Shown: positions 1,192-7,311 of the stretch, one piece after another
Numbering within the stretch: the first letter of the stretch is position 1
How the letters are laid out: each line of letters begins with the position of its first letter
Assembly (NCBI GenBank): GCA_947592005.1
Contig: CANQDJ010000010.1
Coordinates: forward strand, 1 to 36,304
Length of the DNA stretch: 36,304 nucleotides
Source: an uncultured Anaeroplasma sp.
GTDB lineage: Bacteria > Bacillota_I > Bacilli_A > Acholeplasmatales > Anaeroplasmataceae
Direction of reading: 5' to 3'
The notes under the pieces: generated by a model
Seen by the model: the letters and a program-made list of their open reading frames with translations, nothing else
Databases searched by the model: none
What the model was told of the DNA's origin: nothing
Position numbers and translations under genes: made by a program

Positions 1192-1752
1192 TTATAAAGA
1201 ATTAAATTTTGCCATTTCTTCATCAATAGAAACATCTACTTCAGATAATTGTGCATCAATTCTTGCCTGTAATTCACTATCAATCTCAATATTATCGGAA
1301 TTTTGAATGTCTTCAAATGTGGAATCGGCTTGTTCTAAAAACATATCCAATTGACTTCTTGTTTTTTCCGATTCAATAGCCATTCTTTGCTGCTCTTTCA
1401 ACATTTTCTTATAATCAAATTGACCAAATAATTTTGCGGTTTCTTTAGAAAGAATTACCATGCTTTCATTAAATTCCTTTGTATTACTTGCTTCTGTTCT
1501 AAGAAGTTCTTGTAAAGTAATCTGATGAAGCATATGCTTACTTTTTTCTTTTCTCGCTATTATCATTTTAAGAAAAATCAATGTTTGATTATATTCCGCA
1601 GTCATTTTATTTCTTTTAGCCTCGGCAGCCTTAACTATTAATTCTTTTTCTTTTCCTTCGCATTCTGTTATAAATTTTTGAAATTTCTTTTTCGTTTGTC
1701 GAAGTTTCATATTATTTTCTAACTCTCTAGTTTGTTTTGATTTAAGAATCAT
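1192..1752 (-). CDS. ESCRT-III/CHMP-like helical protein
   Basis: 186 residues, almost entirely predicted helix. ATG 1752 is chosen because GGAAGGG lies at the right distance before it; the upstream ATG at 1770 sits 2 bases after the previous stop with no usable site. The N-terminal half is basic (KLRQTKKKF) and the C-terminal third acidic, the layout of Vps2/CHMP1-type ESCRT-III proteins. Long helices fill about 10-75, then a segment with FGQFDYKKMLKEQQ near 110 resembles the later helices of CHMP1/Vps2. The tail contains DSELQARIDAQL (158-169), close to the MIM1 motif (D/E)xxLxxRLxxL that binds MIT domains. ESCRT-III proteins polymerise on membranes and are disassembled by Vps4. The ATPase with the MIT-like domain is the next gene, 24 bases downstream, which supports the pairing. 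Sequence similarity is by eye only; a generic coiled coil remains possible. Confidence 0.6.
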   Translation of the reverse strand: MILKSKQTRELENNMKLRQTKKKFQKFITECEGKEKELIVKAAEAKRNKMTAEYNQTLIFLKMIIARKEKSKHMLHQITLQELLRTEASNTKEFNESMVILSKETAKLFGQFDYKKMLKEQQRMAIESEKTRSQLDMFLEQADSTFEDIQNSDNIEIDSELQARIDAQLSEVDVSIDEEMAKFNSL

Positions 1753-1772: not shown

Positions 1773-2729
1773 CTATAAATTATCAATTTCGTCTTTTAAT
1801 TTTTGAGTTTTATTACCATCAAACGCTTCTTTTTGTTCCAAAATGATATCATCTTGTGTTTGATTTAATCCTCGTTGATATCGATCATTCTTTTCTGTCA
1901 TTTGTCTGATATTTTCAATGTCATTGGCCAAAGCCTCTTTAGTCGCTTCAAAACTTTCACTTTGGCTTTTTTTATTTTCTTCGCTGACAACAACGAATTC
2001 ATTAACAATATCATCAATAGAAGTTTTAGATCGCTTTTTAATTTGAATCTGATGTTCAATAAACTTTTTATCTAGAACGGCCAGTTCATTAAGTAGAGAA
2101 TCGATTGCATTTTTATATTTCATTTCTCCCTCTTTAAAGAAAGAAAGTTTAATGTTAATTTCTTGAATTTGTGCCTTTATTTTCTCCAACTCAGAATCCT
2201 TGTTTATCGTTGTCGCTAAAAGTTTTAAATCGTTTTTCTTTTTAAGCAATCTATCTTTATTTACTAACTGCTGGGCCTGACTTATATAAAGATCTACAAC
2301 GTTATTAAATCTTTCTGCATAATCTTTATCGGATAAAATAAGACATTTCTCAAAGTCGAAACTACCAGTATATATATCAAATAAACTATTTATATTTTCT
2401 GAAACAAACAAAACCATTTCTTTGATTCCCGCACTTCTTGTCTTAGATAATCTCGCTAATTTATCAAGCAAATCATTTATTTTTTCTTCTGTTTTTTGGC
2501 GATTCTTACGATTGATACGACTGGTATCCCTAGCCTCACTCTTTTTTTCGGCAATGGAATTTAAAAGTTCTTCTACACAACTATTAATTGTTTTTTTATC
2601 AAAAACAAATTCTTTATCTTCATCTTCAAAAGTTTCTTCCACTTTACGCTGAATTATTTTTAAATCTCTTTCCCACTCTGCCCATTGTTCTCTCATTTGA
2701 TTGATATTTTTTTTATCAAATAATCCCAT
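1773..2729 (-). CDS. Long coiled-coil protein of the ESCRT-like operon
   Basis: 318 residues; I do not recognise a named family. ATG 2729 follows AAGGAGATG at good spacing. The protein starts MGLFDKKN, like the short amphipathic starts of PspA (MGIF) and some CHMP proteins, and has no signal peptide or membrane segment. It is rich in Lys, Glu, Asp, Asn and Gln. Heptad-like helices run through about 45-95, 155-235 and 260-318, separated by a more hydrophobic patch around 100-150 (EMVLFVSENINSLF). The last residues, DEIDNL, are acidic with a terminal leucine, as in the neighbouring small protein. The stop is 20 bases before the preferred start of that protein, so the two are likely co-translated. 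It may be a second filament subunit, a scaffold or an adaptor; this is inference from the neighbours. Confidence 0.7.
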   Translation of the reverse strand: MGLFDKKNINQMREQWAEWERDLKIIQRKVEETFEDEDKEFVFDKKTINSCVEELLNSIAEKKSEARDTSRINRKNRQKTEEKINDLLDKLARLSKTRSAGIKEMVLFVSENINSLFDIYTGSFDFEKCLILSDKDYAERFNNVVDLYISQAQQLVNKDRLLKKKNDLKLLATTINKDSELEKIKAQIQEINIKLSFFKEGEMKYKNAIDSLLNELAVLDKKFIEHQIQIKKRSKTSIDDIVNEFVVVSEENKKSQSESFEATKEALANDIENIRQMTEKNDRYQRGLNQTQDDIILEQKEAFDGNKTQKLKDEIDNL

Positions 2730-2835: not shown

Positions 2836-3756
2836 TTATATTCCATTTTTTAGTTCTTTTTGGCAATATGGGCAAAATGGAAATTTCTTATCTACAATAT
2901 TTTGACAATAAGGACATCGAATTTCATTTTCTTTCAAAATCGCCTTATTTCCAGTTTGTCCCAATTTAACTTCAAATTCACGATCCTCTTTAATATCTTT
3001 GCGTCTTTCGTCATGGAATTTATGTTCCAAATCGTCCAATGCCTTATCAAACATAATATCATTGATTTTCGTTAAACGCTTTTCTCCTTCTTCTGGAGTA
3101 TATAAATTTAATGTCAATTCATATGGTTTAACCGCATATTCACTTAATTCCTCTTTTAAGGCCAAGACTACCTTTTGACTTATTTGGTCTTGATTCTCTG
3201 ATTGACTGAATATTTCTATTTTATGCCCTGTATTTGCCAAACCTTCTTCTACACACCTTTTAACTATTCTATGGAAAATTGGTGAAACTTCTTCCTGAAT
3301 AATTTGTTGTAAATCTTCTATCTTATCTGCGTGCTTTTTTACGATTTGCATTAATAGTCTTTTCTTTGTCTTAAGCAATTTAATATGTAAATCTATTCTA
3401 AAAGAACATTTAATTTCTACTTCTGGCATAGTTTCTTTGTAATAATATTGATCTAAAACTGCTGTCTTAATCGTATCAAATTGATAATTCAAATTGATTA
3501 AGTAAAATTTAAAATTTTTACCTTTTGTGAAAAAGGCTCTAGGTAAGGTACATGGCTCTTTGGCTTGTGGAATAATATAATCTTCCGGATAAAAAACATA
3601 ACTTTCTTTGTTATAAATTAAACAACCCACATAATCATCTGGGACTTCAAATGAAATAGTTTTCGCACCCGAATATTCACTTTCTTTGGATTTTGTGATT
3701 AATTTTTTTGCATCGGTAGATGCTGTGATTGTTTCCGCTTTATTTCTTAAAAACAT
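2836..3756 (-). CDS. SPFH-like protein with C-terminal zinc ribbon
   Basis: 306 residues. ATG 3756 follows AAAGGGGGAT. Residues about 35-245 read as an SPFH/Band-7 fold: a beta-rich start (TISFEVPDDYVGCLIYN), a long middle helix region with EEVSPIFHRIVKR, then the strand-loop YELTLNLYTPEEGEKRL typical of the end of the SPFH domain. A charged helix (about 230-262) leads to a zinc ribbon with C281/C284 and C295/C298 in two CPYC knuckles. There is no transmembrane segment, so membrane contact would be peripheral or through a partner. B. subtilis YdjI has this same combination (SPFH plus zinc ribbon) and is encoded in the pspA-ydjGHI operon, PspA being an ESCRT-III family member. That known pairing supports a membrane-remodelling role here. 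A 106-base AT-rich gap separates it from the next gene. Confidence 0.75.
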   Translation of the reverse strand: MFLRNKAETITASTDAKKLITKSKESEYSGAKTISFEVPDDYVGCLIYNKESYVFYPEDYIIPQAKEPCTLPRAFFTKGKNFKFYLINLNYQFDTIKTAVLDQYYYKETMPEVEIKCSFRIDLHIKLLKTKKRLLMQIVKKHADKIEDLQQIIQEEVSPIFHRIVKRCVEEGLANTGHKIEIFSQSENQDQISQKVVLALKEELSEYAVKPYELTLNLYTPEEGEKRLTKINDIMFDKALDDLEHKFHDERRKDIKEDREFEVKLGQTGNKAILKENEIRCPYCQNIVDKKFPFCPYCQKELKNGI

Positions 3757-3772
3757 AATTTTATCCCCCTTT

Positions 3773-4513
3773 TTATTTTATTTTTTTTAATATTTTAGAA
3801 ATTGTATTGGACGATATACAAAAACCCATTCCATTCAGACTGACATATGAATTTATATTTTTAATATCCGTCGGAACCTTTTCTATTAAGGAATATGTAG
3901 TCATACCAATAACCTTTGCTTTACAATCTATTAAAGGCCCACCAGAATTACCATGATTTAAACTTATGTTGGTTTGAATAACTGGATCCAATTTTTGATT
4001 ATGAACTCTCTTCGGATTAGAAACAACTCCTTCATTATAGGAAAAATCCTGTTGTTCCGGATTACCAATAGTAAATACATGATCTCCCATTTTCACCAAA
4101 TTCGAATCCGCTAATTGTAATCCATCGATAGAAGGAATTTTTACTGTTGGCAGTAAAATGGCCACATCATCTTCTACAGACAAGGCAACAACTTTAACAG
4201 GATAAAATAGTTTTGAAATTTCAGGAAAAAATTGAATTTTTATAGTTGGAGAAACTACCTTTCTACTGTCATCCATAATTACATGGGCATTCGTACAGAT
4301 ATACCCATTCGATAACAAACATCCCGAACCATAGGAACAACATTCACTATTTATTGTTGCAACAACTTTAACAACTGCCTTTTTAGCAATGTCAATAATT
4401 GATTCAACATCAAAATTGTTTGGAGATTCCTCTTCTTCTCTCAATAAATTTTGACAATATGGGCACTTAGAAACCTTATTGGGAACCTCAGCACCACAAA
4501 ACTTACATTTCAT
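3773..4513 (-). CDS. Zinc-ribbon trypsin-like serine protease (HtrA-type catalytic domain, no PDZ)
   Basis: 246 residues from ATG 4513, chosen because the zinc ribbon then starts the protein (MKCKFCG) and AAGGA lies 10 bases upstream; ATG 4519 and a TTG at 4537 are possible. The zinc ribbon uses C3, C6, C17 and C20. After an acidic linker a chymotrypsin-fold protease follows with the full triad: His77 in TNAHV, Asp116 in DDVAIL and Ser190 in GNSGGP. The TIGNP and VVSN segments match the HtrA/DegP family. Unlike typical HtrA it has no signal peptide, transmembrane anchor or PDZ domain, so it should act in the cytoplasm. It is the first gene of the operon and ends 16 bases before the SPFH gene. 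The shared zinc-ribbon type suggests that the two proteins recognise the same partner or surface. The substrate is unknown. Confidence 0.85.
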   Translation of the reverse strand: MKCKFCGAEVPNKVSKCPYCQNLLREEEESPNNFDVESIIDIAKKAVVKVVATINSECCSYGSGCLLSNGYICTNAHVIMDDSRKVVSPTIKIQFFPEISKLFYPVKVVALSVEDDVAILLPTVKIPSIDGLQLADSNLVKMGDHVFTIGNPEQQDFSYNEGVVSNPKRVHNQKLDPVIQTNISLNHGNSGGPLIDCKAKVIGMTTYSLIEKVPTDIKNINSYVSLNGMGFCISSNTISKILKKIK

Positions 4514-4602
4514 TCTCATCACATCCTTAAAAATCAATATGAATTCTCCTATTTTTATTATTATAGATATAATAAAAAAATTTTTGTATAAATTTCATTT
4601 AA

Positions 4603-4631
4603 CTTATAATAAATACATCGATTCTTGTCAA
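4603..4631 (-). promoter_or_regulatory. Sigma-A-type promoter of the ESCRT-like operon
   Basis: On the minus strand TTGACA (4626-4631) and TATAAG (4603-4608) are separated by exactly 17 bases. Transcription would start near 4596, giving a leader of about 80 bases before the protease gene. The operon is therefore a separate unit with a near-consensus, probably quite active promoter. I see no clear operator. Confidence 0.75.
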
Positions 4632-4748
4632 AATTTCTTATAAATTTATTATAATATTCATATATTTTAAATTCCATAAAATGTGAACTATGTCTATGAA
4701 AAAATTTTGGCCATTTTCATAAAAAATTATAGTTTTTGACTATATTTT

Positions 4749-4794
4749 AAAAAAAATAAAGGATTTTTATCAAATTTTTGTCAAAAATCCTTTA
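4749..4794 (-). terminator. Rho-independent terminator after spmB
   Basis: A 12-base perfect inverted repeat (arms 4757-4768 and 4783-4794) is followed on the minus strand by eight T. The right arm lies inside the last codons of spmB. It separates spmAB from the ESCRT-like operon. Confidence 0.85.
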
Positions 4795-5284
4795 TTAAAA
4801 AGAATAATGCTACACAACATAAGAAACAAATTAAATCACAAAATAAACCCACAATATAAGAATGTCTTGTCTTTTTAATTCCGATATATCCAAAATACAA
4901 TCCCATTACATATACGGTAGTATCACTTCCTCCTTGTAAAACACTACTTATCAAGCCAATTTTACTATCTACTCCATAAGTTTGTATAATAGAAACCATC
5001 ATCGATAAAGAGGCATGAGAGGATACGGGACGAAATACCCCTTGAATAAATAATTCACTGGGTATAGATTTGAATTGGAAAAAGTCATTCAGGATACCAC
5101 TCGATTTAAAAACACTGACCGCCACATACATAACCAACAAATATGGAAGTATGGTTATTCCCGTTTTCATAGAATCCTTACACCCGTTTATAAACGATTC
5201 ATACGCATTGTTTCTTTTTATTGCCGAATAAACCAAAACAATCAAAACAAAAGATAAAATAATATAATAACTAACGTTTTGCAA
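4781..5284 (-). CDS. spmB: Spore maturation protein B
   Basis: 167 residues, close to the 178 of B. subtilis SpmB. The start is TTG 5284, placed by AAAGGAGG 8 bases upstream; it lies 14 bases inside the end of spmA, so the genes are translationally coupled. The protein is a multi-pass membrane protein of the nucleoside-recognition (Gate) family, with conserved stretches VFRPVSSHASLS and QGGSDTTVYV. In B. subtilis SpmA and SpmB are needed for spore core dehydration and heat resistance. Upstream extension of the frame would read through spmA and is not used. The presence of the pair suggests sporulation in this organism or a close ancestor; no other spore gene is visible here. Confidence 0.9.
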   Translation of the reverse strand: MQNVSYYIILSFVLIVLVYSAIKRNNAYESFINGCKDSMKTGITILPYLLVMYVAVSVFKSSGILNDFFQFKSIPSELFIQGVFRPVSSHASLSMMVSIIQTYGVDSKIGLISSVLQGGSDTTVYVMGLYFGYIGIKKTRHSYIVGLFCDLICFLCCVALFFLIKDF

Positions 5285-5852
5285 GAACTCTACCTCCTTT
5301 ATCCAAAACAATAGATAAAATAGTGGAAATAGTGGAAACAACGGCAATATACGGAATAATCGCTACCGGATTGGTACTATGATACTGACTTCGAATGGCA
5401 ATTAACATCGTCGGAATCAAACATAATCCCGATGTATTGATTAATAAAAAAGTTATCATTTCATCTGATGCCACTTCACTATGATTATTTAATTCATCCA
5501 ATTTTTTCATAGCCAACAACCCAAACGGGGTGGCAGCCGAACCCATAGATAACATATTTGCCATAAAATTCATAGAAATATATTGTAAAGCCTCTTCTTC
5601 TTTGTCTAAATTTTTAAATAGTGGGTGAATGATACATATAATATATCGACTGAGCACCTTCAATAATCCGCTGTCCTTACAAATTTGTAAAATACCACCC
5701 CAAAAGATCAATAAGACATAAATATCGAGAAATAAAAAAAACGCTTCTTTCGGTGCCGATAATAATTGAGTTACTACTATATCTGCCCGATTGGTACAAC
5801 CGGCATAGATAAGACCTACCAAAAATATGAATATAAATATCTTATTAATCAT
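5271..5852 (-). CDS. spmA: Spore maturation protein A
   Basis: 193 residues, versus 196 in B. subtilis. ATG 5852 follows GGTGAT. It is a multi-pass inner-membrane protein of the nucleoside-recognition (Gate) family. Family landmarks are FWGGILQICKDSG, the SMGSAATPFGLLAMKKL segment (the family usually has a glycine/alanine-rich xxNAATPxGLKAM here) and the FLLINTSGLCLIPT segment. It is the first gene of a two-gene unit with spmB. The promoter must lie in the 91 bases shared with the divergent aminopeptidase gene, but I see no convincing -35/-10 pair for this direction. Confidence 0.9.
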   Translation of the reverse strand: MINKIFIFIFLVGLIYAGCTNRADIVVTQLLSAPKEAFFLFLDIYVLLIFWGGILQICKDSGLLKVLSRYIICIIHPLFKNLDKEEEALQYISMNFMANMLSMGSAATPFGLLAMKKLDELNNHSEVASDEMITFLLINTSGLCLIPTMLIAIRSQYHSTNPVAIIPYIAVVSTISTILSIVLDKGGRVLAKR

Positions 5853-5910
5853 AGAATCACCAATTAAGTATATGTAGTTATAAAGAAATATAGAAATAAG
5901 AAATAAAAAG

Positions 5911-5919
5911 TGATATAAT
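5911..5919 (+). promoter_or_regulatory. Extended -10 promoter of the M18 aminopeptidase gene
   Basis: TGATATAAT carries the TGn extension directly before a consensus TATAAT (5914-5919), 24 bases upstream of the start codon. No good -35 is seen at 17 bases, as is common for extended -10 promoters. Confidence 0.65.
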
Positions 5920-5943
5920 TAGATAAGTTAAGGAGGAATAAAT

Positions 5944-7311
5944 ATGTATGGAAAAAATGCTTGGAATAAATACCAAGACAAACAAGAAGTATTAAAATTT
6001 AATGAAGAATACAAAGACTTTATTACGAAAGGGAAAACAGAAAGAGAATGTGTTTCTTATGCCATAGAACTTTGTAAGAAAAAAGGATTTAAAGAAATAA
6101 ATCAATTTACTTCTTTAAAAACCGGAGATAAAGTATATGTCATCAATAAAAATAGAAACATTTGTGCTTTTATCATAGGAAAAGAACCTTTGGAACAAGG
6201 CATCAACATATTGGGGGCCCATATCGATTCTCCAAGAATCGATTTAAAACAAAATCCACTTTATGAATCCAAAGGCTTTACCTTAGCGGATACACATTAC
6301 TATGGCGGTATTGTAAAATACCAATGGGTTGCTAGACCTCTAGCACTTCATGGCGTCGTCTATAAAAAAGACGGAACGGAAATAAAATTAAATATCGGAG
6401 AGAACCCAAACGATCCCGTATTCTGTATTACGGACTTACTTCCGCATTTGGCAAAAGACAAAAACACCAAACCTGCCGATAGAGTAATTGAAGGGGAAGA
6501 TTTAGACGTTACCATAAGACATTTACCATTAAACGAGGAAGAGAAAGAATCTGTTAAAAAAATGACATTGAATCTCTTAAAAGAAACCTATCATATCGAG
6601 GAAGAAGATTTCGTTTCTGCCGAAATCGAAATTGTCCCTGCTGGAGAAGCAAGAGATTTGGGTTTAGATCGCTCTATGATTTTAGGATATGGGCACGACG
6701 ATCGAGTTTGTGCTTATACTTCTCTTCGAGCATTATTAGATGCAGGAACTTGTAATTACACAACTTGTGCGTTTCTTGTAGATAAAGAAGAAATTGGTTC
6801 TGTCGGGGCAACAGGAGCTCATTCTAAATGGTTTGAAAATACACTAGCCGAATTGATTGCCTTGACAACCGAATATAATGATTTAAAACTTCGCCATGCT
6901 TTAACAAATACAAGAATGTTATCTTCTGATGTATCTGCCGGAGTCGATCCACTTTATACGAGTGTATTCGAAGGAAAAAATGCCGCTTATTTGGGAAACG
7001 GAATTTGTTTTAATAAATACACCGGCTCACGAGGAAAATCCGGTTGTAATGATGCTGATCCGAAATACATCGCTCAAATTCGAAATATAATGGATTCCAA
7101 TTCCATTCATTATCAAACAGCCGAATTAGGAAGAGTAGACATCGGAGGCGGTGGTACTATCGCTTATATTTTGGGAAACTACAATATGAATGTCATCGAT
7201 GCCGGAATCGCCGTTTTATCCATGCACGCCCCTTATGAAGTTGTTTCCAAAGTAGATGTCTATGAAGCATATCTTGCATATATGGCATTTTTAAAAGAAG
7301 CCAAATTATAA
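5944..7311 (+). CDS. M18 family aspartyl aminopeptidase
   Basis: 455 residues, full length for the family. AGGAGG stands just before ATG 5944. It is a zinc metallopeptidase that removes N-terminal, often acidic, residues from peptides in the cytoplasm. The di-zinc site and catalytic residues are all present: H93 and D95 in GAHIDSPR, D252/D253 in GYGHDDR, E282/E283 in KEEIGS, D329 in SSDV and H428 in SMHAPYE. It is a single gene, divergent from spmAB and convergent with the alaS operon, with its own promoter and a shared terminator. Confidence 0.95.
   Translation: MYGKNAWNKYQDKQEVLKFNEEYKDFITKGKTERECVSYAIELCKKKGFKEINQFTSLKTGDKVYVINKNRNICAFIIGKEPLEQGINILGAHIDSPRIDLKQNPLYESKGFTLADTHYYGGIVKYQWVARPLALHGVVYKKDGTEIKLNIGENPNDPVFCITDLLPHLAKDKNTKPADRVIEGEDLDVTIRHLPLNEEEKESVKKMTLNLLKETYHIEEEDFVSAEIEIVPAGEARDLGLDRSMILGYGHDDRVCAYTSLRALLDAGTCNYTTCAFLVDKEEIGSVGATGAHSKWFENTLAELIALTTEYNDLKLRHALTNTRMLSSDVSAGVDPLYTSVFEGKNAAYLGNGICFNKYTGSRGKSGCNDADPKYIAQIRNIMDSNSIHYQTAELGRVDIGGGGTIAYILGNYNMNVIDAGIAVLSMHAPYEVVSKVDVYEAYLAYMAFLKEAKL

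Follow-up and report, generated by a model that had tools for sequence, protein, structure and literature searches.

The small helical protein and the AAA ATPase encoded side by side at the beginning of the window (the whole stretch of 36,304 nucleotides analyzed here, i.e. the entire contig C10, one of the 76 contigs in the 1.49-Mb genome of an uncultured Anaeroplasma sp.) probably constitute a bacterial module of the ESCRT-III/Vps4 type, in which a polymer would recruit the ATPase via its C-terminal helix. This prediction builds on the MIT-AAA architecture and fold of the ATPase, on the assignment of its neighbor to an ESCRT-III-type family with a predicted helical hairpin, on the linkage of the two genes, and on a tail helix with MIM1 spacing. 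Published surveys regard the membrane-cutting machinery composed of ESCRT-III and Vps4 as confined to archaea and eukaryotes and absent from bacteria, and in the open-licence literature we found no paper on a bacterial locus with both ESCRT-III-like and MIT-AAA genes. The initial annotation had proposed a bacterial counterpart of the contact between the ESCRT-III tail and the Vps4 MIT domain; this idea is supported by sequence homology, by the predicted structures and by the conserved pairing of the genes, and the pair resembles ESCRT more closely than that annotation held. The peptide put forward as the MIM1, DSELQARIDAQL, does not fit that role well. We consider it reasonably likely that the class to which the host belongs has a true ESCRT-III/Vps4 machine with recruitment of MIT to a tail helix, inherited with or exchanged with archaea. 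A linked and conserved pair in bacteria with small genomes would represent a minimal ESCRT open to reconstitution and would show the MIT-tail code beyond archaea and eukaryotes; with such a pair, ideas on where ESCRT arose and how it was transferred also become testable on actual sequences.

The pair belongs to a minus-strand run of five tightly spaced, co-directional genes heading to position 1 (Table 1). The small protein likely starts at the ATG at 1752, since its homologs begin with M(G)xFKS and an AAGGG element lies upstream; the resulting 186 aa agree with the reading frame reported initially. Compared with its full-length ortholog, the ATPase lacks just a few C-terminal residues. The ortholog of the SPFH protein in locus L007 exceeds the Band_7 cut-off, and strong matches were obtained in L047 and L068. 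Where the 318-aa protein is encoded, other loci have one or two helical genes; profile-profile comparison revealed no match of this protein to ESCRT-III or to the helical proteins of neighboring loci.

Table 1. Predicted features of the five-gene run and of the tail of the small protein, in window coordinates
Feature	Position	Strand	Basis
Zinc ribbon + trypsin-like (HtrA-type) protease	3773-4537	-	First gene of the run; Pfam Trypsin_2 7.5e-22
SPFH/Band-7-like protein with C-terminal zinc ribbon (YdjI-like architecture)	2836-3756	-	Weak Band_7_1 and zinc-ribbon matches
318-aa helical/coiled-coil protein, N-terminus MGLFDKK	1773-2729	-	Gene order
ESCRT-III-like small protein P0001: basic helical hairpin, acidic tail	1192-1770, probable start 1752	-	Family alignment, AF2, VIA
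Initially annotated motif DSELQARIDAQL, tail helix A	1246-1281	-	Helix conserved among homologs
C-terminal helix B, DVSIDEEMAKF, better MIM1-like element	1204-1236	-	Spacing kept among homologs
MIT-AAA ATPase (Vps4/CdvC-like), P0005	1-1167	-	Pfam MIT and AAA; CdvC; MIT model; C-terminus truncated by the contig end

A second species of the genus (genome G016) carries a matching gene run with a complete ATPase of 390 aa at the identical chromosomal site, flanked in both genomes by two nucleoside-gate (spore-maturation-type) genes and an aminopeptidase gene. Contamination or misassembly is thus ruled out and the locus is bacterial, because the same genes occur in the same place with the same flanking genes. 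In G016 the run continues into a second small protein (P0007) and then a TPR-membrane protein; the protease gene is absent from the G016 locus, and a homolog of the protease adjoins the MIT-AAA gene of genome G239 (Trypsin_2 4.2e-23). Elsewhere in the genome from which the window derives (G000), four tandem genes (L087, G000:C16:944-8916) encode proteins in which BspA-like repeats are joined to an N-terminal module with kinship to the TPR-membrane protein of G016.

The presence of an AAA ATPase with an MIT-like N-terminus next to the small protein, already noted in the initial annotation, is corroborated by Pfam (MIT: E 6e-4, under the Pfam cut-off; AAA: 6e-36) and by a structural match to the archaeal Vps4 MIT. 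The NCBIfam CdvC model (NF041006) aligns with residues 15-371 of P0005 (160.9 bits, short of the curated cut-off of 650 bits) and ranks first among the NCBIfam models for the homologous ATPases of three loci (L045, L046 and L047; 213-219 bits), which it matches over the full length, including the MIT part; none of these ATPases reaches the 650-bit cut-off, the best homolog scoring 219. The N-terminal three-helix bundle is predicted with pLDDT of about 90-97, and its MIT part (model residues 201-273) has as the best PDB match 2w2u, a chain from a study of archaeal ESCRT-III and its AAA ATPase (Z 12.4, rmsd 1.9 A, 73 of 75 residues, 22% identity), followed by 2v6y, the Vps4-like MIT of S. solfataricus (Z 12.3); these are the top two among 961 chains, with many other MIT entries ranking beneath them. 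On the strength of this model, we regard the prediction of a genuine MIT domain as secure. Both Pfam and the structure match give the architecture of Vps4, an N-terminal MIT followed by one AAA domain, and the ESCRT-III neighbor gene expected of a Vps4 (PMC11188069) is there if the upstream family is accepted as ESCRT-III-like. The oligomerization helix Vps4_C was not seen at E 1e-4 in the homologous ATPases. In the AAA tree, in which other AAA rows are interspersed, deep nodes are weakly supported and canonical Vps4 is not represented, a branch splits the bacterial MIT ATPases from the archaeal/Chloroflexota MIT ATPases, counting those two named groups, so that descent from archaeal Vps4 is not established. 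At the position that our alignment equates with Leu64 of VPS4A, the genus of the window has Ser or Glu and most homologs have a hydrophobic residue; the MIT interface of the window's own ATPase may therefore be modified. Leu64 of VPS4A is required for MIM1 binding (PMC11218997). Further MIT matches in genomes G028 and G130 turned out to be TPR-like proteins and lie outside the present system.

The small protein is a member of a family of about 190 residues, present in 11 genomes of the host's class. A family profile seeded from three sequences revealed homologs in further families of this class, again with an MIT-AAA gene directly downstream. A survey of 395 genomes of the class gave strong matches in 10 (E <= 1e-51; following match 2e-5), and the survey of the phylum added one genome (G629), again from this class. 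The family gene directly precedes the MIT-AAA gene in 10 of the 11 genomes; the exception is G239, with two family copies located ~8 kb upstream of the MIT-AAA gene. Searches of viral contigs revealed no relative of the small protein, comparison of the family profile with PDB sequences yielded no match, and the ATPase search of the genome contigs returned distant AAA matches only. G239 also encodes a 623-aa protein (L067:5171-7042, plus strand) that joins an ESCRT-III-like domain at its N-terminus (E 1.5e-18, later 8e-56, with the family profile) to FtsK_alpha and an FtsK/SpoIIIE motor, possibly a second way to couple such a polymer to an ATPase.

Kinship of this family with ESCRT-III is suggested by several profile matches. 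P0007, the paralogous second copy of G016, matches Pfam Snf7 (E 6.1e-6, profile positions 3-148 of 171) with a score slightly below the curated cut-off (26.4 vs 27.3 bits); P0001 itself has no Snf7 match, and three of nine family members match Snf7 at E < 1. The net charge of the small protein is +9 over the first 110 residues and -11 over the last 75. A basic N-terminal half combined with an acidic C-terminal tail is the charge pattern of ESCRT-III. The family profile also identified a 188-aa protein encoded on a plasmid of Thermococcus peptonophilus (L070; 49.6 bits; E 3.4e-14 in a search of every ORF in the loci retrieved), which itself matches Snf7 (4.2e-4) and whose gene lies two genes from an MIT-type ATPase that possesses Vps4_C, with kinase and PP2C genes alongside. 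This link between the P0001-type family (termed EB) and the Thermococcus ESCRT-III is the best evidence of common ancestry. The layout of the Thermococcus locus resembles that described for the archaeal "Main" clade (PMC11188069). The bacterial loci share with this clade the combination of an ESCRT-III-like protein and an MIT-AAA in one locus, the kinase and PP2C genes (in L045 and L046), and a family profile that recognizes the Thermococcus protein; they differ in the bacterial host, in the SPFH-zinc-ribbon and TPR-membrane partners, in that a winged-helix partner was not identified here, and in the separate placement of the ATPases in the tree. The archaeal Meth_adaptin loci reportedly pair Vps4 with an SPFH protein that has a coiled coil and a zinc ribbon (PMC11188069), a likeness that does not extend to adaptin-appendage, GOLD or ProX-like genes, which were not identified here. 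The crenarchaeal Cdv system is similar in the full-length match of the MIT-AAA proteins to the CdvC model and in the occurrence of CdvB and CdvB2 among the Foldseek matches of the small protein, and dissimilar in that CdvA was not seen here and G016 has FtsZ.

The acidic tail does carry DSELQARIDAQL, which had been described as a MIM1 except for a shift of the last leucine. The strict consensus (D/E)xxLxxRLxxL is matched neither by this segment nor by any of the 13 tails compared. The pattern with the last hydrophobic residue shifted by one is present in P0001 and P0006 only, and since 1.5% of the shuffled P0001 tails also have it (3.4% for P0006), the match taken alone is weakly above chance; relaxed MIM1 matches with Lys/Arg occur in 4 of 13 tails. 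In the alignment of 13 homologs DSELQARIDAQL corresponds to a conserved helix, with the pattern D/N-x-E-[LIV]-x-x-[hydrophobic or R]-[ILV], an acid at E166 and hydrophobic residues at L167 and I171 in all rows (192-aa numbering of P0001, used also below). The initial annotation had named lack of conservation among homologs as a ground for refutation, and the features that suggested MIM1 are not retained: R170 is found in three of 13 homologs, all from the genus of the window, the position is hydrophobic in the other 10, and the final leucine is not conserved. In the last helix, DVSIDEEMAKF, an acid is present at D179 in 11 rows and hydrophobic residues at 182, 186 and 189 in 13, 12 and 13 of 13, respectively, which keeps the p, p+4, p+7 spacing of MIM1 (DxxΦxxxΦxxΦ); three homologs (L044, L045 and L046) also have a basic residue in this helix (DVQIEEKLKSL, DLEIEEKLKSL and DDLIEKKLNQL). 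From these sequences it appears most likely that the proposed idea was right and the motif one helix off. That DSELQARIDAQL itself docks as the MIM1 in the MIT groove seems doubtful, given the fate of its arginine and last leucine and the final helix that retains MIM1 spacing in nearly all rows, although this reading has in its favor that the helix is kept in every homolog, that the core D-x-E-L-x-x-R-I-x-A is invariant in P0001, P0006 and the paralog P0007, and that the first tail helix of P0007 contains a relaxed MIM1, DKELLDRIDAL, in exact register with DSELQARIDAQL. The likeness to Asgard and eukaryotic ESCRT-III of the Vps2/24/46 type with a C-terminal MIM1 lies in the Leu/Ile-rich helix that ends the acidic tail, a feature described for Asgard (PMC7240154); the difference is that here the basic MIM1 residue is found in some homologs only and the strict consensus is unmet. 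CdvB proteins use MIM2 and lack MIM1 (PMC7240154).

Three loci (L047, L066 and L068) share one gene arrangement: SPFH-zinc-ribbon protein, a helical protein of 104-123 aa, a helical protein of ~195 aa (EA), EB and MIT-AAA, with a zinc-ribbon/TPR/membrane protein of ~1000 aa directly after the MIT-AAA gene or one gene on. Profile comparison gave P 4e-4 for EA vs EB, which is suggestive of kinship. In L045 and L046 the ESCRT-like core lies amid genes for vWA, PP2C/phosphatase and kinase proteins (TerY-P-like, the domain names being read from the sequences), a layout similar to that of archaeal ESCRT loci in which a kinase and a phosphatase are encoded. In L066 the protein downstream of MIT-AAA (3894-7028, minus strand) has a zinc ribbon, a TIR_2 domain (2.2e-9), TPR and membrane segments, hinting at signaling or defense. 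A defense or conflict island, with ESCRT-like parts serving against phages, would account for the patchy spread (10 of 395 genomes), for the TerY-P-like vWA, phosphatase and kinase genes of two loci and for the TIR domain in one downstream protein; we nevertheless think it unlikely, as the small protein, the 318-aa protein and the SPFH gene match no PADLOC family and the chromosomal site is identical in two species of the genus. The defense reading is compatible with that of an ESCRT module.

AlphaFold2 predicts for P0001 helices at residues 12-53, 57-115, 120-146 and 166-191, with a mean pLDDT of 80, about 90 in the hairpin. In VIA the hairpin superposes on Snf7 (8wb6) nearly in register (Z 8.6, 1.8 A over 102 residues), on CHMP2A-CHMP3 (7zcg; Z 8.6, 2.1 A over 109 residues) and on the Asgard ESCRT-IIIB (9ftl; Z 9.5). 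Foldseek has CdvB and CdvB2 among its top matches but yields no E-value under 0.001; against the model, BAR domains reach scores equal to or above those of ESCRT-III, as expected for long helices. The protein thus combines the alpha1-alpha2/3 hairpin of ESCRT-III, a fold match that is not unique, with the charge split; in view of the Foldseek and BAR scores, the fold result is supportive rather than decisive. Since the stop codon that ends the small gene and the start of the ATPase gene share a reading frame, we also folded a 301-residue read-through with the stop codons read as residues, a modeling device: both domains fold, and the confidence of the tail, 72 dropping to 56, shows no clear rise beside the MIT compared with the small protein alone. 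It could be argued that the small protein is a generic helical protein that partners an AAA unfoldase, or serves as its substrate, without any membrane link, and that its likeness to ESCRT-III is the look of any long hairpin, considering that the model fits BAR and further helical proteins just as well and the Foldseek E-values are not significant. This explanation has a slim chance, as it leaves aside the Snf7 profile match, the match to a protein of an archaeal Vps4 locus, the true MIT domain, the split into basic N-terminal and acidic C-terminal parts, the M(G)xFKS N-terminus, and the SPFH and membrane-protein neighbors. An envelope-stress system of the PspA type that gained an AAA partner, suggested by the SPFH-zinc-ribbon neighbor found also in the PspA/YdjI operon of B. 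subtilis (PMC8581546, PMC11237479), is very improbable, as PspA_IM30 has no match among nine family members or anywhere in the window genome, three of these nine members match Snf7 instead, and the partner is an MIT-AAA.

For the preferred ESCRT-III/Vps4-type module we propose the following mechanism. The basic alpha1-alpha2 hairpin of the small protein would polymerize at, and bind to, the inner membrane, with the acidic tail being regulatory. The C-terminal helix DVSIDEEMAKF, possibly aided by the DSELQARIDAQL helix, would dock in the groove of the MIT domain of the neighboring ATPase, and the ATPase hexamer would thread and extract subunits, remodeling or recycling the polymer. The SPFH-zinc-ribbon protein and the TPR-membrane protein of G016 probably set the site of assembly, by analogy to YdjI and PspA. 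In B. subtilis, YdjI ties PspA to the membrane (PMC8581546); the PspA-YdjGHI system likewise joins an ESCRT-III-superfamily protein to an SPFH-zinc-ribbon membrane partner, and differs in having PspA rather than a Snf7-like protein and in lacking an MIT-AAA ATPase (PMC8581546). Our best guess of the biological role is membrane repair or the response to envelope stress, with defense as a possibility. Cell division is unlikely to be the main role because G016 has FtsZ and the system is patchy. We considered replacement of FtsZ in division and rejected it, as G016 carries FtsZ. FtsZ (PF12327, PF00091) was not found in the genome of the window and is present in all other genus members listed; its absence is probably an assembly gap.

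Bacterial Vps4-like ATPases have been described by Ravi et al. 2024 (PMC11237479), and those systems, like the present one, combine a Vps4-like AAA with a TPR-membrane protein; according to that paper, snf7 is displaced there by a TPR-6TM gene, whereas here the ESCRT-III-like genes are retained. A plasmid of Chlorohelix allophototropha (Chloroflexota; L071:1-4655) has an MIT-type AAA gene whose neighbors encode a kinase and two ~200-aa helical proteins, possibly an independent bacterial ESCRT locus with marginal homology to ESCRT-III. Finally, membrane proteins of ~600 aa in four loci (L014, L015, L020 and L022) have a C-terminal AAA that groups in the tree with the MIT ATPases of G166, G188 and G274.
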